Positions 7,573-48,026 of a stretch of 56,321 nucleotides of DNA are shown piece after piece (positions within the stretch are counted from its first letter, which is position 1; every line of letters begins with the position of its first letter). Under the pieces are notes generated by a model. The model was not told the DNA's origin. It saw only the letters and a program-made list of their open reading frames with translations, and made no database searches. The translations under genes were made by a program, and so were the position numbers. The DNA is from Opitutaceae bacterium (GTDB lineage Bacteria > Verrucomicrobiota > Verrucomicrobiia > Opitutales > Opitutaceae). The stretch spans positions 1 through 56,321 of the forward strand of contig SXSC01000063.1 of NCBI GenBank assembly GCA_005792355.1, in the 5' to 3' direction.

Positions 7573-10053
7573 GTGGGCAGGATAATTGCCCTCGGTTTCG
7601 CGCTCGGCGCGACTGCCGCTCACGCCGCGGAATCGCCCGGGCAAAAAGTGCTTGCGCAGTTTGTGGGGAAATACTGCCTGAAGTGCCACGACCGGGAGAC
7701 CGAGAAAGGCGATCGCGAATTCGAGAGTTTCAAGCTGCCGCTCGCCAAAGTGGCGGATCTCATCACGGCCAAGGATCTCGTTGATCAGCTCACGCTGGGG
7801 GAAATGCCGCCCGCGAAGGCGGAACTTCATCCCACCGACGACGAGCGGCTCGCTGTCATCCGGGTCCTGCGGGAGGGCATCGCGGCCGCGCGCGCCCAGT
7901 TCGAAAGCACCGCTGCCCGCACGGTGATGCGGCGGCTGTCGAACCGGGAATACGAGAACACGCTCGCGACCCTCTTTGGTCGCCGGGTGGACACCCTCGG
8001 CCTCACGGCCGAATTTCCGAAGGAGAAGGCGAGCGAGCACATTGACACCATCGGGCAATCGCTCGTCACGTCCGGCTTCCTGCTGGATCAGTATTTCCAG
8101 GCCGCCAATCGCCTCGTCGAGATGCGTCTCGGCCGTCCGGCGACCACGCCGAATTCATGGCACTTCACCGGCAATTTCGTGCAATACGAGGAGCTGTCGG
8201 GCCCGCACAAGGCGGCCTTCGCCAACAAGTATCTTTGCCTGTATGAGCAGCCGAACACCGACACGCGTCAGGGCGGCTACGGCCATATCGAGGACTTCCT
8301 CAAGGGCGTGCCGGTCTCCGGGCTCTACGAACTCGAGGTTCTGGCGCAGGCGATGCACCGCGACACCCATTACGATCCCACGATCTTCGGCATCGATTTT
8401 TCCGAACCCTTCCTGCTCGGGATCGTGCCCGGCGACGCCACCAAGAACCACATTCACTATCCCCAGGCGATCGAACCGCTCCTCGCGCAGGCGGCGGTGC
8501 CGGACGATCAACCGGCGTGGATCAAGTTTCGCGTCTGGCTCGAAGCCGGGCAGACGCCCCGCTTCATCTTCCCCAACGGGCCTTACGAATCGCGGGCATC
8601 CGTCATCGCGATCAACAAGCGCTACGCGGACGAGTTCCAGGGTCGGTTTGCCAAGGCGGGCGTCAGCCGCACGCACCTCCTGCGGGAGGGGAAACTCCCG
8701 CACATCCGCATCGGCGAGATCAAGCTGGCGGGCCCCATCCCCGAGAGCGGGGGCAGCCTTGAGGAGATCGCGGTGTTTGGTGCGCGCGGCTTTCAACCGC
8801 CGCAGGCGCTCGAGCGGCTCCAGGCCTTTGGCGCCCGCGCGTATCGCCGCCCGCTGACGTCGGCCGACCGCGCCGGCATCCGGAAAACCTATGACCGGCG
8901 GATCGCGGAAAAAGCGACGCCGCGTCAGGCGGCGCTGGATACGCTGAAGATGATCCTGTGCTCGCCGTCGTTTCTCTATTTCAGCGAAATCACGGATGAA
9001 AGAAATCCCCGGCTCGGCCCCTACGATCTCGCGTCGCGACTTTCCTACGCGCTCTGGAGCGCACCGCCCGACCCGGAGTTGCTCGCCGCCGCCGCCGCCA
9101 AGCGGCTGACCGAGCCCCGGGAACTGCGGCAGCAAAGCACGCGGCTCCTCGCGGACGATCGCGTCGGCGGATTCGTGCACGGTTTCCTCGACGCCTGGCT
9201 GAACCTGCGCGATCTCGGCAGCCAGCCGCCCGCGCGTGAATCGTCGCGCGTGTATTACGCCGAGAACCTGCCCGAGGCGATGAAGACGGAAGTGCGCCTG
9301 TTTTTCCGTCATCTGCTCCGGGAAAACGGCTCGGTGCGGCAGTTTCTCGACGCCGACTACACCTTTGCGGACAAGCGGCTGGCCAAACTCTACAACCTGC
9401 CCGAGCAGACGACCCTCCGCCTCGCCGACGGTTTTCAGCGGGTCAGCCTCGCGGGCAATCGCCAGCGGGGCGGCCTGCTCGGCATGGCGGGTGTGCTCAC
9501 GGTCAGTGCGAACGGAGTGGAAACGTCGCCCGTGACGCGCGGCGTCTGGGTCTCGGAAAACATCCTCGGCATCAAGCCGCCCCCGCCGCCGGATGTGGTT
9601 CCCGCGGTCGAGGCGGATGTGAGCGGCGCAACCACCATCCGCGAGCGGCTCGCGAAACACCGGGCCGACCCCGCCTGTGCCGAGTGCCATCGGAAAATCG
9701 ACCCGCTCGGCTTCAGTCTCGAGAGCTTCGACCCCATCGGCCGCTGGCGCGCGACCTATGCCAAACCCAGGGGCAATGCGCCCGCCCCGCAGATCGATTC
9801 CAGCGGCGAGTTTGGTTCCGGGCAGACCTATGCCGGCTTTCACGATTTCAAAACCATCCTCGTCGCGAGTCGCACGGATATTTTCACCCGCCACCTCATC
9901 CGGCAGTTTCTCAGCTACGCCACCGGCCGACACCTGGAGCCCAGCGACGACTTTGTGATCGACGACCTCCTGCAGGCCGTGAAGAACGACGGTTACGGCC
10001 TGCGCACCCTCCTCGTGGAGTCCCTCGCCAGCGAGATCTTCCGGTCGAGGTGA
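7573..10053 (+). CDS. DUF1587/DUF1592/DUF1588/DUF1585 cytochrome-type protein
   Basis: An 826-residue secreted protein of the PVC multidomain type. It has an N-terminal c-type haem motif CLKCH at residues 35-39, then DUF1587 (VMRRLSNREYENTLATLFG), a jelly-roll-like middle section, DUF1595/DUF1592 (YRRPLTSADRAGIRKTYD, ILCSPSFLYFSEI, RLSYALWSAPPDPELLAAA), DUF1588 (RGGLLGMAGVLTVSANG, then TSPVTRGVWVSENILG), a second CAECH near residue 702, and DUF1585 at the C-terminus. The reaction is unknown; the two haem motifs suggest periplasmic electron transfer. I prefer the GTG at 7573 because a signal peptide (RIIALGFALGATAAHA) follows at once. An ATG at 7468 would place a dispersed non-coding repeat inside the gene. 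It is paired with the preceding DUF1552 gene. Confidence 0.9.
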   Translation: MGRIIALGFALGATAAHAAESPGQKVLAQFVGKYCLKCHDRETEKGDREFESFKLPLAKVADLITAKDLVDQLTLGEMPPAKAELHPTDDERLAVIRVLREGIAAARAQFESTAARTVMRRLSNREYENTLATLFGRRVDTLGLTAEFPKEKASEHIDTIGQSLVTSGFLLDQYFQAANRLVEMRLGRPATTPNSWHFTGNFVQYEELSGPHKAAFANKYLCLYEQPNTDTRQGGYGHIEDFLKGVPVSGLYELEVLAQAMHRDTHYDPTIFGIDFSEPFLLGIVPGDATKNHIHYPQAIEPLLAQAAVPDDQPAWIKFRVWLEAGQTPRFIFPNGPYESRASVIAINKRYADEFQGRFAKAGVSRTHLLREGKLPHIRIGEIKLAGPIPESGGSLEEIAVFGARGFQPPQALERLQAFGARAYRRPLTSADRAGIRKTYDRRIAEKATPRQAALDTLKMILCSPSFLYFSEITDERNPRLGPYDLASRLSYALWSAPPDPELLAAAAAKRLTEPRELRQQSTRLLADDRVGGFVHGFLDAWLNLRDLGSQPPARESSRVYYAENLPEAMKTEVRLFFRHLLRENGSVRQFLDADYTFADKRLAKLYNLPEQTTLRLADGFQRVSLAGNRQRGGLLGMAGVLTVSANGVETSPVTRGVWVSENILGIKPPPPPDVVPAVEADVSGATTIRERLAKHRADPACAECHRKIDPLGFSLESFDPIGRWRATYAKPRGNAPAPQIDSSGEFGSGQTYAGFHDFKTILVASRTDIFTRHLIRQFLSYATGRHLEPSDDFVIDDLLQAVKNDGYGLRTLLVESLASEIFRSR

Positions 10054-10273
10054 GGCCCGTCGACGTGCCGTCGGCTTTCTGCTCCACCTTTTGCACGGCC
10101 GCTTCACTCCCAAAGCCACTGGCCGTGAGCACCGCAGAGACTTCCGCCGCCACCACCGGACTGAATTGTTGGCCGAGTCGGACCAAGTCAGTTCAACCAC
10201 GGCTGGACCGTTGCGTGCGCTTGGCAGAAATTGGCAAGTCTTCGAACAAAAGATCTGCTAGCAGGTGGGTCGC

Positions 10274-10738
10274 ATGAGAACATTGAAATCCCTCCTCGTC
10301 CTCGCACTCGTTGCCGCCGCCGCGGCCATCGGGGCCACCGTGGCCTCCAAAAACAGCAAACCCGCCGTGAAACTCGGCGCATTTTCCGTGAGCCTGTCCG
10401 TCAAGGACATCGCGGCATCGCGTGCGTTCTATGAAAAACTTGGTTTTAGCCAGGTATTGGGCGACCAAGGAAAGCACTGGCTGATCCTGCGCAACGGCGA
10501 GACGACCATCGGCCTTTTTCAAGGGTTGTTCCCGCGCAACACGCTCACGTTCAATCCAGGTTGGACGTCGCAGAACCAGCCGCTGCCGGAATTCCAGGAC
10601 GTGCGTGAAATCCAGCGTCAGTTGAAGGCGCAGGGGTTGAAACTCGACACCGAGGCCGACGAAAAGACGAAAGGCCCGGCGAGCCTCATGCTGACTGATC
10701 CGGATGGGAATCCCATCCTGCTCGATCAGCACCGGTAG
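10274..10738 (+). CDS. VOC (glyoxalase-fold) family protein with N-terminal membrane segment
   Basis: A 154-residue protein. Residues 4-25 form a hydrophobic segment (LKSLLVLALVAAAAAIGATVA), then a vicinal-oxygen-chelate fold begins at LGAFSVSLSVKDIAASRAFY with EKLGF, and ends with LMLTDPDGNPILLDQH. This resembles the Glo_EDI_BRP-like/PhnB group rather than metal-dependent glyoxalase I, and most members have no known substrate. The leader makes it probably periplasmic or anchored, which is unusual for VOC proteins. ATG at 10274 chosen; a GTG at 10265 is possible. It converges with the PQQ-propeller gene at 10795. Confidence 0.8.
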   Translation: MRTLKSLLVLALVAAAAAIGATVASKNSKPAVKLGAFSVSLSVKDIAASRAFYEKLGFSQVLGDQGKHWLILRNGETTIGLFQGLFPRNTLTFNPGWTSQNQPLPEFQDVREIQRQLKAQGLKLDTEADEKTKGPASLMLTDPDGNPILLDQHR

Positions 10739-10794
10739 GTCTCGCACCGCGTCTTCCTTCGGTCGCCCGCCCTGGTCCCGAAGGCCGCGGGGCC

Positions 10795-12192
10795 CTACGG
10801 CGCGGCCTCCGAGAGGCGATACAGCTTGGTCTGCGTCCGGAGGAAGAGGCTGGCGCCGGTGACGGCGGGCGTGGCGAGGCTCATTTCGCCGAGCGGGCTC
10901 TTGCCGAGCTCGGAATAGTTTTCGCCGGCGGCGAAGACAAACGTGGTGCCGTTTTCGTTCAAGGCATAGATGCGGCCGGCGCTCGCGATCGGTGAGCTCG
11001 AAAACGTGTTGCCCGAGCCACCGATGCGCTCGCGGTAGATCTCGCGACCAGTCGCGGCTTCGAAAACCTGCATCATGCCACCGTCGTTGATCGAATAGAG
11101 CAGCCCGCGATAATACAGCGGCGAGCCGGTGTAGGGTGTGCCGCGTGGCTGGAACCACGCGACGAACGGGCCGGAAGTTTCGCCCTCAGGGAGCGAGATG
11201 TCTCCCGTGGCGCCGGGCCTGATGGCGTAGAGCGGGCGGTTGTTTTCGCCTTGCGAGCCCGAGCCGACGAAGAGCAGGCCGCCGCCGACCGCGGGCGAGG
11301 GCGTCGCAGGGGTCATGCCGCGCAGACGCCAGAGTTCGCGGCCGTCGAGGCCGTAGCTCACCACCATGCCTTTGCCGACGGTGACGATCTCGGTGCGTTC
11401 CGGGGTCTGCCAGATGAAGGGCGTCGCCCAGCCGGATTTGTTTTTCGCGGCAAGCTCGGTGCGCGAGGTCGTCCACGCGATGGCGCCGGTCTGCGCGTCG
11501 AGCGCGGTCAGGAACGACTCGCCCTCGCTATCGCGCAGCACATACACGCTTCCGGCGTGCACGACGGGGGAGGAGGCGGTGCCGAAATCAAGGTAGATGG
11601 ACTGTGGCACCCACGAGCGCTGCCAGAGTACCTGGCCGTCGAGCGAAAGGCAGAAGAGGCCGACGTTGCCGCCGAACGAGGCGAAGATCCGCTCGCCGTC
11701 GGTGGCGGGTGTTTCGGAGGCGTAGGTGTTCTTGCGATGCCGGCCGCCAAACGGCTTGCCGCGGTGCGCCTCGCGCTCCCAGAGCCGCTTTCCGGTCCGG
11801 ACATCGTAGGCGAGCACGAGGTAGCTCACCTCCTCGATTTCGCGCGTCAGCTCGATGTCGCGCGCCAAGACGCGTTTGTTCACTTCGTCGTCGGGCAGGC
11901 CCTGCTTCTTCAACTCGGCGATATAGTCGTTGCCGAAAATGCCGGTCTGCGCGGGCTTGATCGCGCCTCGCGCGGTCGTAACGAAGACGCGGTTGCCGGC
12001 GACCACCGGGGACGACCAGCCGTTGCCGGGAACCTCGGCGACCCAGGTCACGTTTTTCGTCGCGGACCAGGTGACGGGCAGCGTGGCGCCGTCCGCCACC
12101 GCCGAACCCCCCGGCCCGCGAAACTGCGGCCACGTGAGCTCTTCGGCCGTTGAAGTCGCTGCCAAGAGAAGGAAAAGGATTGTTGTCCGCAT
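10795..12192 (-). CDS. PQQ-like beta-propeller repeat protein, secreted
   Basis: A 465-residue protein. The signal peptide is MRTTILFLLLAATSTAEE, followed by TWPQFRGPGG, the usual opening of the PVC-type PQQ_2 propellers. Repeated blade motifs include YLVLAYDVRTGKRLWER, LFCLSLDGQVLWQRSWV, SFLTALDAQTGAIAWTT, VVSYGLDGRELWRLRG and MMQVFEAATGREIYRERI. The fold resembles BamB, but the RGPGG start marks the Planctomycetota/Verrucomicrobiota outer-membrane-associated family whose function is unknown. ATG at 12192 places the signal peptide at the N-terminus; the longer ATG at 12225 adds a non-signal stretch. It is transcribed alone, converging with the VOC gene. Confidence 0.88.
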   Translation of the reverse strand: MRTTILFLLLAATSTAEELTWPQFRGPGGSAVADGATLPVTWSATKNVTWVAEVPGNGWSSPVVAGNRVFVTTARGAIKPAQTGIFGNDYIAELKKQGLPDDEVNKRVLARDIELTREIEEVSYLVLAYDVRTGKRLWEREAHRGKPFGGRHRKNTYASETPATDGERIFASFGGNVGLFCLSLDGQVLWQRSWVPQSIYLDFGTASSPVVHAGSVYVLRDSEGESFLTALDAQTGAIAWTTSRTELAAKNKSGWATPFIWQTPERTEIVTVGKGMVVSYGLDGRELWRLRGMTPATPSPAVGGGLLFVGSGSQGENNRPLYAIRPGATGDISLPEGETSGPFVAWFQPRGTPYTGSPLYYRGLLYSINDGGMMQVFEAATGREIYRERIGGSGNTFSSSPIASAGRIYALNENGTTFVFAAGENYSELGKSPLGEMSLATPAVTGASLFLRTQTKLYRLSEAAP

Positions 12193-12432
12193 GGTTTTGG
12201 TTGGCGCGAACACCGACGGAAACAACGGCCCGCTGCAATGCCTTTGCGACGAATGGCGGTCGGCGGCGATCCAATGATCTCCGGGCCGAGTGTGGTGCGA
12301 AAATGGACTCTTTCTTTCTCCGGCCTCCGCGTGCTGGTCCCGTCGCTGCGGGGCAACCTTCCGTTCAGTCGCTCCAAGCCTTGGACACCGCAGAGACAGG
12401 GCAAGAACGCAGAGAATACCCAGGGCGGTGGG

Positions 12433-12536
12433 GAGCGGCGGCTTGCCCGCCTGAGGCGAGGTTGCCCAACCGCCGACGTGCGGCGCAGGAAAGGGCGCTT
12501 GGGCAGGCGCCCTTCCTTCCGGCCGCCACCGTCAAC
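12433..12536. repeat. Two-hairpin dispersed repeat, family A copy 2
   Basis: Contains GAGCGGCGGCTTGCCCGCC, then AACCGCCGACGTGCGGCGCA, then GGGCGCTTGGGCAGGCGCCC and TTCCTTCCGG. It shares the second hairpin almost exactly with the copies at 28805 and 46234. Just before it, at 12388-12416, is a CCGCAGAGACAGGGCAAGAA piece of the other dispersed type. The interval 12193-12613 holds no other supported feature. Confidence 0.75.
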
Positions 12537-12613
12537 TCTGAGAAATACGCCCTGTACCGGGGTATCGCCGATTCGGCGTGGACGGGCGCGCGGCCGTGGT
12601 GTTGCGTGGGTGC

Positions 12614-13120
12614 ATGACGACCATTCCGGGAGCTTCCGCGATTCGCACGGTGCAGGCCGACATGGACCGGCCGGATCACCAGGCGGCGGTGTTGGCGATG
12701 GTCGATGCCTACTCGCGCGACCCGATGGGGGACGGCGCGCCCCTCTCCGCCGAAGCGCGCGCGCGGCTCATCCCGGGGTTGCGCCAGCATCCCACGACGC
12801 TGATTTTCCTGGCCTACGACGGCGAAGCCCCGGTGGGCGTGGCGGTGTGTTTTCTGGGTTTTTCCACGTTTGCGGCCAAGCCGCTCGTGAACCTGCACGA
12901 TGTATCCGTTGTGCCGACACACCGGGGCCGCGGCGTCGGCCGTATCTTGCTCGCCGCCGTCGAGGCCCGGGCGCGCGAGCTCGGCTGCTGCAAGCTCACG
13001 CTGGAGGTGTTGGACCAGAACCACCGGGCCCTGCGGACCTACCTCGCCGCCGGCTTCAAGCGCTATTCCCTCCAACCCGGCGCCGGCGAAGCGCTCTTCC
13101 TGTCGAAGCGGCTGAAGTGA
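12614..13120 (+). CDS. GNAT family N-acetyltransferase
   Basis: A 168-residue acyltransferase of the GNAT fold. The acetyl-CoA pyrophosphate-binding signature VVPTHRGRGVGRILLAAVE (R/Q-x-x-G-x-G) is near residues 97-115, preceded by the strand LVNLHDVSV. It is followed by LTLEVLDQNHRALRTYLAAGF, the typical motif B where the chain curls round CoA. It most resembles uncharacterised small-molecule or peptide acetyltransferases; the acceptor cannot be told. The ATG at 12614 was chosen because GNAT homology begins shortly after it; a longer frame begins at 12578 in repeat-derived sequence. It stands alone, downstream of a family A repeat. Confidence 0.88.
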   Translation: MTTIPGASAIRTVQADMDRPDHQAAVLAMVDAYSRDPMGDGAPLSAEARARLIPGLRQHPTTLIFLAYDGEAPVGVAVCFLGFSTFAAKPLVNLHDVSVVPTHRGRGVGRILLAAVEARARELGCCKLTLEVLDQNHRALRTYLAAGFKRYSLQPGAGEALFLSKRLK

Positions 13121-13302
13121 AGACGGCGGTGGGCCGGCGCGAAAGCGAGTTGGTAGTCCTCATTGGGGACGTGATTTGGGCCACAGACCCTCAGGACGTC
13201 AGTATCCTCAGACCCTGAGAGCGCCGCGGAGGTTATCCCGCTTCTTCGCTCTGAAAGCAGGCGTCGTCCAACAATGAACTGGTGTGCCGACCGCAAAGTA
13301 GC

Positions 13303-13378
13303 GTGACAAGTAGCGGCGAGCGCCAGCGAGTGGAGCGCGCCGGTGGTCCACTCGCTGGCGCTCGCAGCTACACGTCAC
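13303..13378. repeat. Large near-perfect inverted repeat (32-bp arms)
   Basis: Arms at 13303-13334 and 13347-13378 are reverse complements at 29 of 32 positions, with a 12-bp loop at 13335-13346. The core TGGCGCTCGC/GCGAGCGCCA and the outer GTGAC/GTCAC match. No coding frame uses it. It could fold as a long RNA hairpin or be a palindromic mobile element. Confidence 0.85.
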
Positions 13379-13402
13379 GAAAGTTATTGGTCGCGCCACT
13401 AG

Positions 13403-13533
13403 TCCCGTCGGCTATCTGCAGTCCCCCGGCATCGGCCACCCGATCAAGTCCAAGATCGAACTCGGCGTCTCCGGCAAGGACGGCTACTGCGAGGACATCA
13501 AGGTCTGGAATGTAGCGCCGGCGAAGTACACCC
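13403..13533 (+). pseudogene. C-terminal scrap of a DUF1080 (3-keto-disaccharide hydrolase-type) protein
   Basis: One plus-strand frame reads VGYLQSPGIGHPIKSKIELG followed by VSGKDGYCEDIKVWNVAPAK. This resembles the last beta strands of secreted DUF1080/concanavalin-like proteins (GLQ-S-GIDHPxKSK...F-DIKVW). Nothing of the remaining 150 or so residues is present. The match is short, so the family call is moderate. The rest of 13121-13683, apart from the hairpin, has no supported gene. Confidence 0.45.
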
Positions 13534-41532: not shown

Positions 41533-41925
41533 ATGGGTCTCTTCTACGTTGGCTGCAAAGTGGAAAACCACAAAGACGGCAAATCCGCCGTCATCCCGCG
41601 ACTCATGGTCGATTCGGGTTCGCAGTTCACGTGGGTCGATGCCAAGATACTGGAGAGGATCGGCATCGAACGCCGGAAAAAAGATCTCCAGATTCAAATG
41701 GCCAATGGCCAGGTCATCACGCGATCGGTTGGCTACGTCATCCTGCGGGTCGACAAGACCGAGACCACGGACGAAGTGGTGTTTGGCGATCCGGGAGACT
41801 TGTCGCTGCTGGGCTGCCGGGCCCTCGAAGGCCTGAACCTGCGGGTCGATGCCCGCGCGAAGCGCCTGGCAGCCGCCGGGCCAATCATCGCGGCCACGGC
41901 CATCAAGCTCCGACTGCGCAAATGA
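41533..41925 (+). CDS. Retropepsin-like (clan AA) aspartyl protease
   Basis: A 130-residue protein. LMVDSGSQFTWVDAKIL contains the D-S/T-G active-site triad with hydrophobic flanks, and DLSLLGCRALEGLNLRVD matches the second conserved LLG motif of clan AA single-domain proteases. Such proteins dimerise like viral retropepsins; bacterial function is mostly unknown. No signal peptide. Its TGA overlaps the ATG of the next gene (ATGA), so the pair is translationally coupled. The partner is a secreted amidohydrolase. Confidence 0.85.
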   Translation: MGLFYVGCKVENHKDGKSAVIPRLMVDSGSQFTWVDAKILERIGIERRKKDLQIQMANGQVITRSVGYVILRVDKTETTDEVVFGDPGDLSLLGCRALEGLNLRVDARAKRLAAAGPIIAATAIKLRLRK

Positions 41926-43670
41926 GCTCGCTGCGGACGGATCGGCCCCGGAAAAAACGCATCCTCGCGGCCGCAGTGCTGGCCCTGGCCCCGTTGTGCG
42001 CCGCCCAGGAGGCGCCGCCCGATGCCATCTTCCACAGCGGCAAGGTCGTCACCGCCGATGCCGGCTTCAGCGTGCGGGAGGCCTTCGCGGTGCGCGCCGG
42101 GCGGATCGTCGCCGTCGGCGGCACGGCCGAGCTGCGCCGGCTCGCGCGCCCGGGCCAGACGCAGCTGCACGATCTCGGCGGCAAGATGGTGCTGCCGGGG
42201 CTGATCGATTCCCACGTGCACGCGCCGGCGGCCGCGATGTTCGAATTCGATCACGAGGTGCCCGACATGGAGACGATCGCCGACGTGCTCGCGTACATTT
42301 CCGCGCGGGCGAGGATCGTCCCCGCGGGGGAGTGGATCCAAACCTCGCAGGTCTTCATCACGCGGCTCAAGGAGGCCCGCTACCCGACCCGCGCCGAGCT
42401 CGACGCGGCGGCGCCGAAGCATCCCGTGAATTTTCGCACCGGACCCGACAACATGCTGAACACGCTCGCGCTCGCGCAGTGCGGCTTCGATCGCAATTTC
42501 GCGGTGAAGGACAGCGGCCCGGGTTATCTGGAAAAGGACGCGAACGGCGAACCCAACGGGCTCACGCGTGGAATCGGGCGATACATCAAGGTTCCCAGCG
42601 GCCGGGCGGCGACCGACGCGGAGCAGCAGGCCCGGCTGCAGGCGTTGTTTCGCGACTACAATCAGATCGGCTTCACGGCGATCGCCGATCGCGGCGCTTC
42701 GCCCTCCTCGATCGCGCAGTACGAGAAATTGCGGGCGGCGGGCGGCCTCACCGTGCGCGTGGCGATGTCGCAGACGATTCCGACCGTCGGCGCCATGGAG
42801 TCGATCTTGGCGGCCATCGATCAGATCGCCGCGAGCCCGTTGCGCCGCGAGGACGCCTGGCTGCGTCTGATCGGCACCAAGATCTGGCTCGACGGCGGCA
42901 TGCTCACGGGCAGCGCCTACATGCTGCAGCCGTGGGGAAAAAACGAAAACTACGGCATCCGCGACGACGCCTACCGTGGCGTGCTCAACGTGCCGCCCGA
43001 CCGTCTCCTCCCCATGGTGCGGCGCGTCGCCGGGCACGGACTGCAGTTCACCGCGCACGCGGTCGGCGATGCCGCGGGCGCGACGCTGCTCGACGCCTAC
43101 GAGACGGTGAATCGCGAGCAGCCGATTCGTTCGCTGCGCATGGGCATCACGCACTCGAACTTCATGACGCGCGAGACGGTGGAGCAGTCGGCGCGTCTCG
43201 GGGTGGTTCTCGATATCCAGCCCATCTGGCTCTATCTCGACACCCGCACGCTGGTGCAACAATTTGGCTACGACCGGCTCCGCTATTTTCAACCGCTCCG
43301 GAGCATTCTCGCCGCCGGCGGCATGACGGGCGGCGGCTCCGACCACATGCTGAAGATCGGCGACCTGCGGGCGATCAACCCGTACAATCCCTTCCTCGCG
43401 ATGTGGACGACGATCACACGGCAGGCGAAATGGCACGAGGGGAAGCTCCATCCCGAGGAGGCGCTCACGCGCCGGCAGGCGATCGAGTTCTACACCCGCA
43501 ACAACGCCTTCCTGCTCTTCTGGGAGAAGGAGCTGGGCTCGCTCGAGCCCGGCAAACGTGCCGACTTCATCGTCGTCGATCGCGACCTGCTCACGTGTTC
43601 CGACGATGCCGTGAAGGACACCAAGGTGCTGCAAACCTGGATCGAGGGAAAATCGGTCTATCGGCGGTAG
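41922..43670 (+). CDS. Secreted YtcJ-type amidohydrolase
   Basis: A 582-residue metal-dependent hydrolase. Signal segment KRILAAAVLALAPLCAAQ, then the amidohydrolase-3 pattern: IFHSGKVVTADAGFSVREAF, MVLPGLIDSHVHAP with the HxH metal pair near residue 97, HAVGDAAG later, and C-terminal GSLEPGKRADFIVVDRDLL. YtcJ-like enzymes hydrolyse N-acyl or cyclic amides; substrate unknown. Start at ATG 41922 overlaps the protease gene by four bases. Another YtcJ-type gene lies at 46275-48026, so the cluster carries two. Confidence 0.9.
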   Translation: MSSLRTDRPRKKRILAAAVLALAPLCAAQEAPPDAIFHSGKVVTADAGFSVREAFAVRAGRIVAVGGTAELRRLARPGQTQLHDLGGKMVLPGLIDSHVHAPAAAMFEFDHEVPDMETIADVLAYISARARIVPAGEWIQTSQVFITRLKEARYPTRAELDAAAPKHPVNFRTGPDNMLNTLALAQCGFDRNFAVKDSGPGYLEKDANGEPNGLTRGIGRYIKVPSGRAATDAEQQARLQALFRDYNQIGFTAIADRGASPSSIAQYEKLRAAGGLTVRVAMSQTIPTVGAMESILAAIDQIAASPLRREDAWLRLIGTKIWLDGGMLTGSAYMLQPWGKNENYGIRDDAYRGVLNVPPDRLLPMVRRVAGHGLQFTAHAVGDAAGATLLDAYETVNREQPIRSLRMGITHSNFMTRETVEQSARLGVVLDIQPIWLYLDTRTLVQQFGYDRLRYFQPLRSILAAGGMTGGGSDHMLKIGDLRAINPYNPFLAMWTTITRQAKWHEGKLHPEEALTRRQAIEFYTRNNAFLLFWEKELGSLEPGKRADFIVVDRDLLTCSDDAVKDTKVLQTWIEGKSVYRR

Positions 43671-43979: not shown

Positions 43980-45986
43980 ATGAAAACAAAATACCTCGCC
44001 AGCTTCTGTCTTCTCGGGGCCTCGTTGCTCGCCGCCCCCGCCGCCGATCCCGCGCTCGTCGCCCGTCAGCAGATCGCGGATCTCCGCCGTGAAATCGCGC
44101 GCCACGACGACCGCTATCACCGGCAGGCCGCGCCCGCAATCAGCGACGCCGATTTCGACGCGCTGAAGCGGCGCCTCGCCGGCCTCGAGCGGGAGCATCC
44201 CGCCGCGGCCGTCACGGCTCCGGCCCCGCCGGAAATCGGCGACGACCGTACCGGGCTGTTTCGGACGCAACCTCACCGCGAGCGCATGCTGAGTCTCGAG
44301 AAGGCCTTTAAGGAGGCCGATCTGCGGGCGTGGCATGCGCGACTGGCGAAGCGGCTTGGTCGCGAGGACCTCAGTTATGTCATCGAACCGAAATACGACG
44401 GGCTTGCCGTCAGCCTGACCTACGTGCGGGGCCGTCTGATCCGCGCCGTCACGCGGGGCAACGGGAGCGAGGGCGATGACATCACGGCCAATGTCATCCA
44501 GATGGCCGGTCTGCCGCGGGAGCTGGCGGGCGATCCGTTGCCGGAGTTCATCGAGGTGCGGGGGGAGGTGTACGTGCCGTTCGACACCTTTGCCCGGGTG
44601 AATGCGGCCCGCGAGGCGGCGGGCGAGACGTTGTTCGCCAACCCGCGCAACCTCGCCGCGGGCACGGTCCGCCAGCTCGATGCGCAGGAAGTCGCGGGCC
44701 GCGGTCTGCGCCTCGTGTGTTATGCCGTGGGCGGGTGCGAACCGCGGGCGGCGTTGCCGGCGACCCAGCGCGAGCTCACGCGCCAGTTCAGGGCCTGGGG
44801 GCTGCCGGCCATCGAGGAATCCTGGTCGGCCGGCGGCAGCCACGAAATGGTGCTCGCCGTCGCCGCGTGCGGACGCGCGCGCGGCGTGCTCGCGTTTCCC
44901 GTCGACGGCGCCGTCGTGAAACTGGATTCGCTGGCGCTGCAGCGCGAAGTCGGTGCGGGCGAAAACTCTCCGCGCTGGGCGATCGCGTTCAAGTTCGCGC
45001 CGGAGCGGGCCGAGACGCAGGTGCTCGCCATCACGATCCAGGTGGGCCGCACCGGGGTGTTCACGCCCGTGGCTGAACTGGCGCCGGTGCGCCTCGCGGG
45101 AACCACCGTCGCGCGGGCGACGCTGCACAACCGCGACGAGATCGGGCGAAAAGACATCCGGGTCGGTGACACCGTCTACGTCGAGAAGGCCGGCGAGATT
45201 ATTCCCGCGATCGTCGGGGTGAATCACGCGCGCCGGCCGGCGGGCGCGTCGCCGTTTGTGTTTCCCGAAAAATGTCCGGACTGCGGCGCGGGCGTGGCGC
45301 AGCGGGCCGGGGAAGTGGCGGCGCGTTGTGGCAACGCGACCTGTCCCGCGCAGCTGCGCCGTCGGATCGAGCACTTTGCCTCGAAGGCCTGCGTCGACAT
45401 CGAGGGTCTCGGGCCCGCGATGATCGAGGCGTTGGTGACCAAGGGCTGGGTGAAGGATTTGCCTGACCTCTATCGGCTGTATCGCCCGGACTTGCTGACG
45501 GTGGGGCGGAACAACGCGCCGTCGGTCGATCGCCTCCTCGCGGCGATCGAGGCGAGCAAACGCGTGGAATTGTGGCGCGTGATCCATGGGCTCGGCCTGC
45601 CCCAAGTCGGGGCGGTGGCCGCCCGGGAGCTGGCCCGGAAACATCGCAGTCTCGCGGCGCTCGCGGTCGCGGAGCCGCGCCACCAGGTGCTGATCGCCTC
45701 CTTGTTGGAGGCCGGAGTGCGACCGGTCGTGCCGGGCAGTGATGGCACGCGCCTAGAGGGGAAGACGTTTGTTCTCACCGGCACACTGCCGACTCTCTCC
45801 CGGGCGCAGGCCACGGGGAAGATCGAGGCGGCCGGCGGCCACGTCGCGGGCAGCGTGGGTCGACGCACGCACTACGTCGTCGTGGGCGCCGACTCCGGCA
45901 CCAAGCGGGAAGAGGCGCGGAAGCTGGGTGTGCCGGAGATCGACGAGGCCGGGCTGCTGCGACTGCTGGCGGAACCGAACCAGTAG
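43980..45986 (+). CDS. ligA: NAD-dependent DNA ligase with predicted signal peptide (LigA paralogue)
   Basis: A 668-residue LigA-family protein. Relative to E. coli LigA it has about 24 extra N-terminal residues forming a Sec-type leader: KTK, then YLASFCLLGASLLAAPA. Domain Ia keeps the NMN-site residues as Y46, H47, D56 and D60, with F59 replacing Tyr. The AMP-accepting lysine is K138 in EPKYDG. RGEVYVP, FANPRNLAAGTVRQLD, PVDGAVVKLD and PRWAIAFKFAPE are intact. OB fold follows, then zinc Cys 432, 435, 450, 455, helix-hairpin-helix region (about 465-580, lacking one expected segment) and BRCT (590-664). It should join nicks with NAD+, but the leader predicts a periplasmic location. ATG 43980 is the only sensible start; there is no shorter Met before domain Ia. 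Possibly an accessory ligase besides the replicative one. Confidence 0.93.
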   Translation: MKTKYLASFCLLGASLLAAPAADPALVARQQIADLRREIARHDDRYHRQAAPAISDADFDALKRRLAGLEREHPAAAVTAPAPPEIGDDRTGLFRTQPHRERMLSLEKAFKEADLRAWHARLAKRLGREDLSYVIEPKYDGLAVSLTYVRGRLIRAVTRGNGSEGDDITANVIQMAGLPRELAGDPLPEFIEVRGEVYVPFDTFARVNAAREAAGETLFANPRNLAAGTVRQLDAQEVAGRGLRLVCYAVGGCEPRAALPATQRELTRQFRAWGLPAIEESWSAGGSHEMVLAVAACGRARGVLAFPVDGAVVKLDSLALQREVGAGENSPRWAIAFKFAPERAETQVLAITIQVGRTGVFTPVAELAPVRLAGTTVARATLHNRDEIGRKDIRVGDTVYVEKAGEIIPAIVGVNHARRPAGASPFVFPEKCPDCGAGVAQRAGEVAARCGNATCPAQLRRRIEHFASKACVDIEGLGPAMIEALVTKGWVKDLPDLYRLYRPDLLTVGRNNAPSVDRLLAAIEASKRVELWRVIHGLGLPQVGAVAARELARKHRSLAALAVAEPRHQVLIASLLEAGVRPVVPGSDGTRLEGKTFVLTGTLPTLSRAQATGKIEAAGGHVAGSVGRRTHYVVVGADSGTKREEARKLGVPEIDEAGLLRLLAEPNQ

Positions 45987-46233
45987 TCGCGTGCTGCGCG
46001 TGCCGTCTCCCGCCGCAAGCGACACCACCGAAAGGTGGAGCCCGATGTCCCCAGCGGGCTTCAGGGCTGAATTCGGAACCCGGACCGGAGTGCAACCCCC
46101 AGTGAAAGTTTGACCAGTCTCGCCCGTGGCGATTCGTTTTGCGGTGTGCACGCGACCCCACGTCAACCGACCGCGATCAGGTTCACCTCCGGTGTACGCC
46201 CCTCCGCGCTGACATTGAGCGCCGCAGCGCCAG

Positions 46234-46333
46234 GAGAGCGGCGGTTGCCTAACCGCCGGCGTGCGGCGCAGGCCATGGGCGTTTGGGCAAGCGCCCCTCC
46301 CTCGGCCGGCCAACGTCATCCGGCGGATGCGCC
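46234..46333. repeat. Two-hairpin dispersed repeat, family A copy 4
   Basis: GAGCGGCGGTTGCCTAACCG then CCGGCGTGCGGCGCAGGCCA and GGGCGTTTGGGCAAGCGCCC then CTCCCTCGG, ending GGCGGATGCGCC. The ATG used for the next gene lies inside it. The interval 45987-46233 has no other supported feature. Confidence 0.8.
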
Positions 46334-48026
46334 TCTTTCCGGCCCACGCCTGGATCATTCGATCCTCCGCACGATTTTCTTCATCATTGCCGCGATCGCG
46401 CTGACGAACGCCGTGCGTGCGGCGGCGTTGGTGCTCACCCAGGGCCGGGTGTACACGGGCGACGCGAAACAACCCCGGGCCGAGGCGGTGCTCGCGGTGG
46501 ACGGGCGCATCGCCTTTGTGGGTGGCGCCGCCGAGGCCCAGCGCCGGGCGCCCGCCGGTGCCCGGGTGATCGATCTGGCCGGTCGCACCGTCTTCCCGGG
46601 GTTCGTCGACGCCCATGCGCATCTCGTCGGCATCGGATTTCGTGAGTTGAACTTCAACCTCGAGGGCACGGCCGGCCTCGGCGAATTGCAGGAGAAACTG
46701 CGCCGTCGCGCCGCCAGTGAGCCGGGCCCGGGCGGTTGGATCGTCGGGCGCGGCTGGATCGAGTCGCAGTGGTCGCCCCCGAAATTTCCCACGCGGGCCG
46801 ACCTCGATGCGGTGGTGCCCGATCGCCCCGTGGTGCTCACCCGCGCGGATGGCCACGCGTTGGTCGCAAATTCGCGCGCGCTCGCCCTCGCGCGCATCGA
46901 TCGCACGACACCGAATCCCTCGGGCGGCGAAATCCTGCGCGACGCGAACGGCGAGGCGACCGGCCTCCTGATTGATCAGGCGATGGACCTGGTGCGACGG
47001 CTCGTCCCGGGTGCGACCGAGGCCGAGACAGCCCGGGCGATCGTGATCGGGGCTGAACGCGAGGTGCGGCTCGGTTGGACGCAGATTCACGTGGCTGGCG
47101 CGAGCACGAGCGAGGTGCGGCTGCTCCAGCGTTTGAGCGCTGAAGGGAAAACCAAGCTGCGCCTGTTTGTCGCCGTGAGCGGACCTGGTGCCGCGGCGGA
47201 AGAATTGCTGGGCACTGGGTCCCTGGTCGGGGAGAACTGCAGGGTTCGCGGGATCAAGTGTTACATTGACGGCGCGCTCGGTTCGCGCGGCGCGGCGCTG
47301 CTGGAGCCCTATGCCGATGCCCCCGCGAGCCGCGGTCTTCTGCTCAACACCCCGGAGAAGCTGTTGCCGTTCTTTATCCGCGCGCTCCGGGCCGGCCTCC
47401 AGGTCCAGACCCACGCCATCGGCGACCGTGGCAACCGGCTCGTGCTCGATTTATACGAGCAGGCCTTCGCCGCCGTGCCGCCGGGCGAGCGGAAAGTTGC
47501 CGAACCGCGCTGGCGGATCGAACATGCCCAAGTGCTGCACGCCGACGACATCCCCCGTTTCAAGCGGCTCGGCGTCATCGCCTCGATGCAGCCGTCGCAT
47601 GCGATCGGGGATTTGTATTTTGCGCCCAGCCGGCTCGGTCCGGCCCGCCTCGGCGGCGCGTACGCCTGGCGCAGCCTGCTCGACGCCGGGGCGATCGTGG
47701 CGGGCGGATCCGATGCCCCGGTGGAGCGCGGCGAACCGATGATCGAATTCTACGCCGCGGTCGCCCGCCGGGCGCCCGATGGTTTCGCCAACGCCGACTG
47801 GCGCCGTGAGCAGCGGGTCACGCGGGCCGAGGCGTTGAAGCTGTTCACGCTCGGGCCGGCGTTTGCGTCGTTCGAGGAAAAAGAGCGCGGCAGCATCGAG
47901 GTGGGCAAGGTCGCCGACTTCACCGTGCTCTCGGCCGACATCCTGGAGATTCCCGAGGCGGAGATTTTGAAAACCCGGTGCGTGATGACCGTGATCGCCG
48001 GCGCGATCGTGTGGGAGCAACGGTAG
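46275..48026 (+). CDS. Secreted YtcJ-type amidohydrolase (second copy)
   Basis: About 583 residues. A signal-like segment SILRTIFFIIAAIALTNAVR precedes the amidohydrolase-3 domain: LTQGRVYTGDAKQPRAEAVL, TVFPGFVDAHAHLVGIGFRE with the HxH pair, HAIGDRGNR, RIEHAQVL, GGSDAPVERGEP and C-terminal GSIEVGKVADFTVLS. The start is difficult. Going upstream from the signal segment, the first in-frame ATG is at 46275, inside a family A repeat, giving an untypical 35-residue extension. GTG 46413 would give a leaderless protein. A rare start codon is possible. It is followed after two bases by the Nramp-like transporter, so they probably form an operon. Confidence 0.87.
   Translation: MGVWASAPPSAGQRHPADAPLSGPRLDHSILRTIFFIIAAIALTNAVRAAALVLTQGRVYTGDAKQPRAEAVLAVDGRIAFVGGAAEAQRRAPAGARVIDLAGRTVFPGFVDAHAHLVGIGFRELNFNLEGTAGLGELQEKLRRRAASEPGPGGWIVGRGWIESQWSPPKFPTRADLDAVVPDRPVVLTRADGHALVANSRALALARIDRTTPNPSGGEILRDANGEATGLLIDQAMDLVRRLVPGATEAETARAIVIGAEREVRLGWTQIHVAGASTSEVRLLQRLSAEGKTKLRLFVAVSGPGAAAEELLGTGSLVGENCRVRGIKCYIDGALGSRGAALLEPYADAPASRGLLLNTPEKLLPFFIRALRAGLQVQTHAIGDRGNRLVLDLYEQAFAAVPPGERKVAEPRWRIEHAQVLHADDIPRFKRLGVIASMQPSHAIGDLYFAPSRLGPARLGGAYAWRSLLDAGAIVAGGSDAPVERGEPMIEFYAAVARRAPDGFANADWRREQRVTRAEALKLFTLGPAFASFEEKERGSIEVGKVADFTVLSADILEIPEAEILKTRCVMTVIAGAIVWEQR

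Follow-up and report, generated by a model that had tools for sequence, protein, structure and literature searches.

Does the ligase gene at 43980..45986 of this window (the whole stretch of DNA analysed, 56,321 nucleotides) encode an NAD-type DNA ligase that works outside the cytoplasm and, if so, with what cofactor and on what DNA? With the exception of LigE, which is ATP-dependent, no DNA ligase is known to us to have been placed outside the cytoplasm. Here, we propose as a likely reading of the sequence that the window ligase is a duplicated NAD-type LigA paralogue with a Sec leader, and that it would work outside the cytoplasm.

The ligase gene and its domains

The features are as follows:

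43980..45986, + strand: leadered LigA paralogue, 668 aa plus stop (open reading frame with Pfam and NCBIfam matches)
43980..44042, + strand: predicted Sec leader, residues 1-21 (sequence, leader rule, low pLDDT; cleavage putative)
44061..44207, + strand: domain Ia (NMN-binding), about residues 28-76 (Nlig-Ia match below cut-off; alignment)
44259..45005, + strand: adenylation domain, residues 94-342 (Pfam), with the K138 codon at 44391-44393
45012..45242, + strand: OB fold, residues 345-421 (Pfam)
45270..45350, + strand: C4 zinc finger, residues 431-457 (Pfam; C432, C435, C450 and C455 kept)
45396..45674, + strand: helix-hairpin-helix (HhH) region, residues 473-565 (HHH matches below cut-off)
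45750..45965, + strand: BRCT domain, residues 591-662 (Pfam)
41850..43667, + strand: YtcJ-like amidohydrolase (Amidohydro_3), upstream neighbour (homologues near the ligase in the same genus)

Pfam matches to DNA_ligase_aden, OB, the C4 zinc finger and BRCT lie above cut-off, and those to HHH_2, HHH_5 and Nlig-Ia (20.8 bits) below it. The LigA domain order is thus present (adenylation, OB, zinc finger, HhH below cut-off, BRCT), with the last portion of the HhH region shorter than in several relatives. The protein resembles LigA (TIGR00575 / PRK07956) in domain order, catalytic residues and zinc finger, and scores 683 bits (cut-off 369) and 639.9 bits (cut-off 444.45) against the NCBIfam LigA equivalogs. 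It is predicted to adopt the LigA fold: the model has a mean pLDDT of 84.6 and a pTM of 0.56, with residues 1-18 at a pLDDT under 50, and its top PDB matches are NAD-type ligases, namely the modelled complex 9a6z at rank 1 and the E. coli crystal 2owo at rank 2 (E 6e-59, TM 0.54 to the query, a loose whole-chain fit). When the structures are aligned, the protein is 36% identical to E. coli LigA.

In the alignment to E. coli LigA (2owo), K138 is the equivalent of the AMP lysine. The earlier note had claimed that the catalytic motifs, K138 included, and most NMN-site residues are kept, and this is confirmed: in domain Ia, Y46, H47, D56 and D60 are kept and F59 replaces Y35 of the E. coli enzyme.

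The leader of the window protein

Residue 29 of the window ligase pairs with residue 5 of E. coli LigA (2owo), which leaves 24 extra N-terminal residues, and the extension reads MKTKYLASFCLLGASLLAAPA-ADP. Over the best run of 12 uncharged residues in it, mean hydropathy is 2.16, and the protein shows the positive n-region and hydrophobic core of a Sec leader. On the claim that about 24 added residues form a Sec-like leader, the alignment, the hydropathy and the leader rule given below all agree. The AAPA-ADP stretch is a candidate signal peptidase site, and we infer from it that cleavage would follow the AxA at residue 21; A-x-A occurs at shuffle level across the group. The ATG at 43980 is the earliest ATG, GTG or TTG downstream of the preceding stop in this frame, and an in-frame TTG lies at residue 16, a start at which would yield a leaderless protein. 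A promoter scan found none. As a feature of the sequence, the leader is real.

The leader across homologues

We compared 222 distinct ligase open reading frames, 80 of them from a broad scan (among the matches listed) and 142 from Opitutales and other Verrucomicrobia, the latter divided into a leadered group of 59 and 83 others. The broad scan was queried with the leadered alignment, and ordinary LigAs make up most of the matches listed; several of its 80 frames come from Verrucomicrobia, and one, the second frame of L090, is itself of the leadered kind. The same rule was applied to all: a start codon at most 80 residues upstream of the domain, K or R before the core, and as core an uncharged 12-residue window with a mean hydropathy of at least 1.8.

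By this rule 50 of the 59 copies in the leadered group carry a leader, and of those 50, 39 score best from an ATG start. In five more that fail it (L036, L043, L046, L261 and L279) the leader is clear by eye. Three of the 59 are doubtful, L037 and L268 having no K/R after the ATG and L275 no start codon near the core, and in L265 the N-terminus is cut by the contig end. Among the other LigAs of Opitutales and Verrucomicrobia, the rule picks out 1 of 83 (L030, from a TTG with a likelier start downstream), and in the broad scan 2 of 80 (among the matches listed), from TTG and GTG starts; the second frame of L090 is leader-like by eye and missed by the rule. When controls are restricted to those with at least 40 residues of open frame upstream, room that many of them have little of, 3 of 58 pass.

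Of 57 copies scored (L036, with no scoreable window, and L265 being excluded), 55 have a net positive charge ahead of the core and none a negative one. The A-x-A motif occurs in the leaders about as often as in shuffled sequences (31/57 vs 30.5 expected), so the cleavage site draws no independent support from it. Tat export does not account for the group as a whole (Tat-like leaders in 2/57), nor does a lipoprotein nature (a lipobox-like stretch in 3/57). A single odd start or a mis-assembly was rejected in view of the 59 copies, 50 of which follow the rule while five are clear by eye. Judged on these N-termini, the leader is a lineage-wide trait.

A second, leaderless ligase and the spread of the pair

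The window belongs to a draft genome of 8.4 Mb (416 contigs, completeness 98%, contamination 5.06%), in which contig C403 encodes the single further NAD ligase. This second enzyme is 683 aa long, starts MSPAEVSSRIVELR and is leaderless; hence the leaderless LigA that the earlier note had said should be looked for, and whose absence, together with poor signal scores, it would have held against its reading, is present. In the trees, both copies cluster with the matching copy type from genomes of the same genus, so neither looks like a contaminant.

At least 22 of 57 relatives, the window genome counted, have a leadered copy, a minimum figure because G006 and G019 have split or truncated genes that were counted as leaderless. 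These carriers are the window genome, 15 others of its genus, five from other genera of the family and one from another family of the order. A leaderless LigA accompanies the leadered one in 21 of the 22, the exception being G026, which is 80% complete. Unlike LigA, the window ligase is leadered and is a second copy beside a leaderless LigA, and BRCT and HhH are often reduced in its group; the leader and the second copy argue against its being the cytoplasmic, essential replication ligase.

Sampling was widened to 141 genomes at the level of the class and 120 at that of the family, and selected regions were then retrieved from the matches. Since these regions (40 of them from the family search) were picked mostly as likely leadered, the figure of 59 is no measure of prevalence. 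A phylum search of 288 genomes gave matches only and covers the limits of the group beyond the order in part. Within one genus, a comparison of genome size between 16 carriers and 10 non-carriers gave p 0.005, on rounded draft sizes, and has no place in our argument. One genome, G020, has three LigA-type genes (L040, L060 and L071), one leadered and two leaderless ones of different clades. The record L090, which bears the title Akkermansia muciniphila, has two ligases at about 8000-13500, one leaderless and one of the leadered type, with some 2 kb between them; since both cluster with Opitutales, the title is doubtful.

Phylogeny

A quick tree was built from 149 rows, leaving out three short frames (L268 being too short) and the broad-scan loci above L096. 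In it, 53 rows of the leadered type form one clade, X1 (SH-aLRT 100), made up of 52 group members and the second frame of L090. Six others (L211, L253, L255, L256, L260 and L264) form a second clade, X2, also with support of 100. The expectation that leadered homologues would form a clade holds for the 53, with the six placed apart. A careful tree of 59 rows places 20 of the 21 tested X1 rows together (100/100) and L210 beside the five tested X2 rows. Constraining X1 and X2 to one clade (26 leadered of the 59 rows) costs 17 log-likelihood units, with a p-AU of 0.101, by which a single origin is neither proven nor rejected; on these sequences one or two origins of the leadered group are possible. 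The leadered copy of G028, placed on the leaderless side in the first tree, later fell among the six X2 rows.

Conservation within the leadered group

Eight catalytic residues (K138, D140, G141, R159, E196, D309, K314 and K338) are unchanged in 59/59 copies. At the NMN site, D56 and D60 are each kept in 58 of 59 (one gap each) and Y46 in 57 (one P, one gap), and position 59 is Y in 57 copies, F in the window alone and a gap in one. The column of H47 (E. coli H23) is more varied: F is the commonest residue (24 copies), followed by H (18), Y (14) and N (one), with two gaps, whereas the 83 leaderless copies have 68 Y, 7 H, 6 R and no F; phenylalanine at this position in leadered copies may bear on NAD+ use.

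The zinc cysteines are kept in the leadered copies except for one S and one gap. Separately, they are missing from 7 of the 83 leaderless LigAs. A BRCT match is found in 33/53 X1, 0/6 X2 and 82/83 leaderless copies, so that 26 of the 59 have none, among them L268, which ends at a contig edge. The HhH region is shortened in several copies of the group.

Comparison with LigB and LigE

By analogy, the nearest functional parallel to the window ligase would be E. coli LigB (YicF, NF005987), likewise a second NAD-type ligase with a Sec-like leader. Clear Sec-like leaders are found on LigB of E. coli (L213:5489-7171), Enterobacter (L284:301-1971) and Klebsiella (L285:280-1956), and those of the last two (one each) are equivalent to the leader of E. 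coli K-12 LigB, with a different sequence. E. coli LigB has no BRCT in the account available to us in part (PMC5507437), like part of the leadered group; in the same portion of that source we found no mention of signal, periplasm, secretion, localisation or export for LigB. In the excerpted report on a cpxR deletion, ligB is 3.6 fold and endA 2.4 fold higher, and its authors note that many effects of the deletion can be indirect (PMC2731931).

As an identity for the window ligase, LigB was rejected: the score is 161.7 bits vs a cut-off of 498, and the LigB hallmarks of a reduced cysteine finger and no BRCT, as given in the available part of PMC5507437, are absent from a protein that has both zinc finger and BRCT. 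The two enzymes share 25% identity over 478 columns, and LigB sits on a separate long branch, far from the window ligase. Given this low identity and distance in the tree, the two leaders are probably independent, and it seems probable from the sequences that exported NAD-type ligases arose at least twice. The earlier note had taken an exported NAD-type ligase to be undescribed. This stands for the open-licence PMC literature, where no report of one appears among the matches listed; that the window group should be unique is made improbable by the LigB leaders.

LigE is a predicted exported ATP-dependent DNA ligase of proteobacteria (PMC6144786, PMC12221376, PMC10799422). In the available parts of these reports it is, like the window ligase, an accessory enzyme that accompanies a replicative NAD ligase and has a leader predicted to direct it to the periplasm; it differs in being a minimal ATP enzyme, mostly without added domains, whereas the window ligase is a near-complete NAD enzyme. 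The identification as LigE was also rejected, the window protein having NAD-type domains and no ATP-ligase family among its 7 Pfam matches.

Competence genes and a possible exported partner

The flanks of the 59 leadered loci, 50 of which have at least 1 kb on either side, were searched for nine marker proteins, and no common operon was found with these markers. In three species of one genus (L198, L267 and L276) the gene immediately after the leadered ligase, in the same orientation, is dprA. One further genome has comEC two genes from the ligase, on the opposite strand. Found after looking, this adjacency is a weak hint from gene order at DNA uptake; most loci have no competence neighbour among the markers searched. 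ComEC is present in 21 of 22 carriers (missing from G016, 85% complete) and in 50 of 57 relatives overall, and being near-universal does not discriminate carriers. For Endonuclease_NS, which could be an exported partner, no clear association with the leadered ligase emerges (14/21 carriers vs 6/15 family non-carriers, G015 and G056 excluded; Fisher p 0.18).

What might an exported ligase do?

In the explanation that we favour, the precursor would be sent through Sec, and by the positive charge before the core the enzyme is predicted to be periplasmic whether the leader is cut or uncut. The ligase would fold in the periplasm with its zinc finger in place and draw NAD+ from lysed cells or the medium, a use of NAD+ that is proposed because the adenylation site, like most of the NMN pocket, is preserved. 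The nicks that it would seal are those of double-stranded DNA, periplasmic or extracellular, and most likely of DNA that is taken up or cell-held, and the leaderless LigA would handle replication. To the broader proposal, that an Opitutales lineage runs NAD+-dependent ligation outside the cytoplasm through a dedicated LigA paralogue, with enterobacterial LigB as an independent case, extracytoplasmic NAD+ as the ligation cofactor and DNA repaired before or without uptake, we give an even chance. From a leadered lineage of intact NAD-type ligases it would follow that DNA is sealed, and NAD+ available for use, on the far side of the inner membrane; through its parallel in E. coli LigB, the idea can be tested in a common laboratory strain.

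One option within this explanation is that the exported ligase mainly serves the extracellular DNA of biofilms or aggregates and not uptake, a sub-version whose probability overlaps with that of the whole and which we regard as possible though tentative. The dprA and comEC neighbours in two lineages speak against it, while the absence of a conserved competence operon at most loci is in its favour, as are the effect of the predicted exported LigE on gonococcal biofilm (PMC10799422, PMC12221376) and the rise of ligB expression in E. coli biofilms (PMC5507437), both as reported in the parts of these sources available.

Two further alternatives would change the explanation itself. If the start were mis-called, the enzyme would be a leaderless, cytoplasmic back-up ligase, and the TTG at residue 16, the A-x-A count at shuffle level and the 3/59 doubtful leaders are in keeping with this; we consider it unlikely, since hydrophobic, positively flanked N-termini recur in 50/59 copies by rule and in five by eye despite their differing sequences, ATG is the best-scoring start in 39/50, and such N-termini are rare elsewhere (3/58 LigAs with room). 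Moreover, positive charge before the core would put the enzyme outside even if it were anchored. The Tat pathway carries folded proteins, and Tat export would permit a ligase to be adenylated before export and to act once; Tat-like leaders in just 2/57 weigh against such a single-use enzyme. The same improbable reading covers a ligase exported as a DNA-binding scaffold, for which one could cite the 26/59 copies with no BRCT, the shortened HhH of several and the activity of E. coli LigB in vitro, under 1% of that of LigA in the available part of PMC5507437. The eight catalytic residues kept in 59/59 copies weigh against this reading.

Other neighbouring genes

Outside the window genus, the commonest neighbour of the leadered ligase is an MBL-fold (PhnP-like) gene. 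It accompanies the ligase, in the same orientation, at 9 of 59 loci, all from other genera (L208, L249, L250, L254, L257, L261, L262, L263 and L274), eight times downstream and once upstream. Among the other loci searched it likewise occurs in L207 and L148; L074 and L225 in this search are smaller cuts of leadered loci. A YtcJ-like amidohydrolase lies near the ligase in six loci of the same genus (the window, L033, L034, L040, L045 and L046), a proximity that probably reflects location and not mechanism. In the window, Amidohydro_3 genes stand on both sides of the ligase, at 41850-43667 and 46146-48023.
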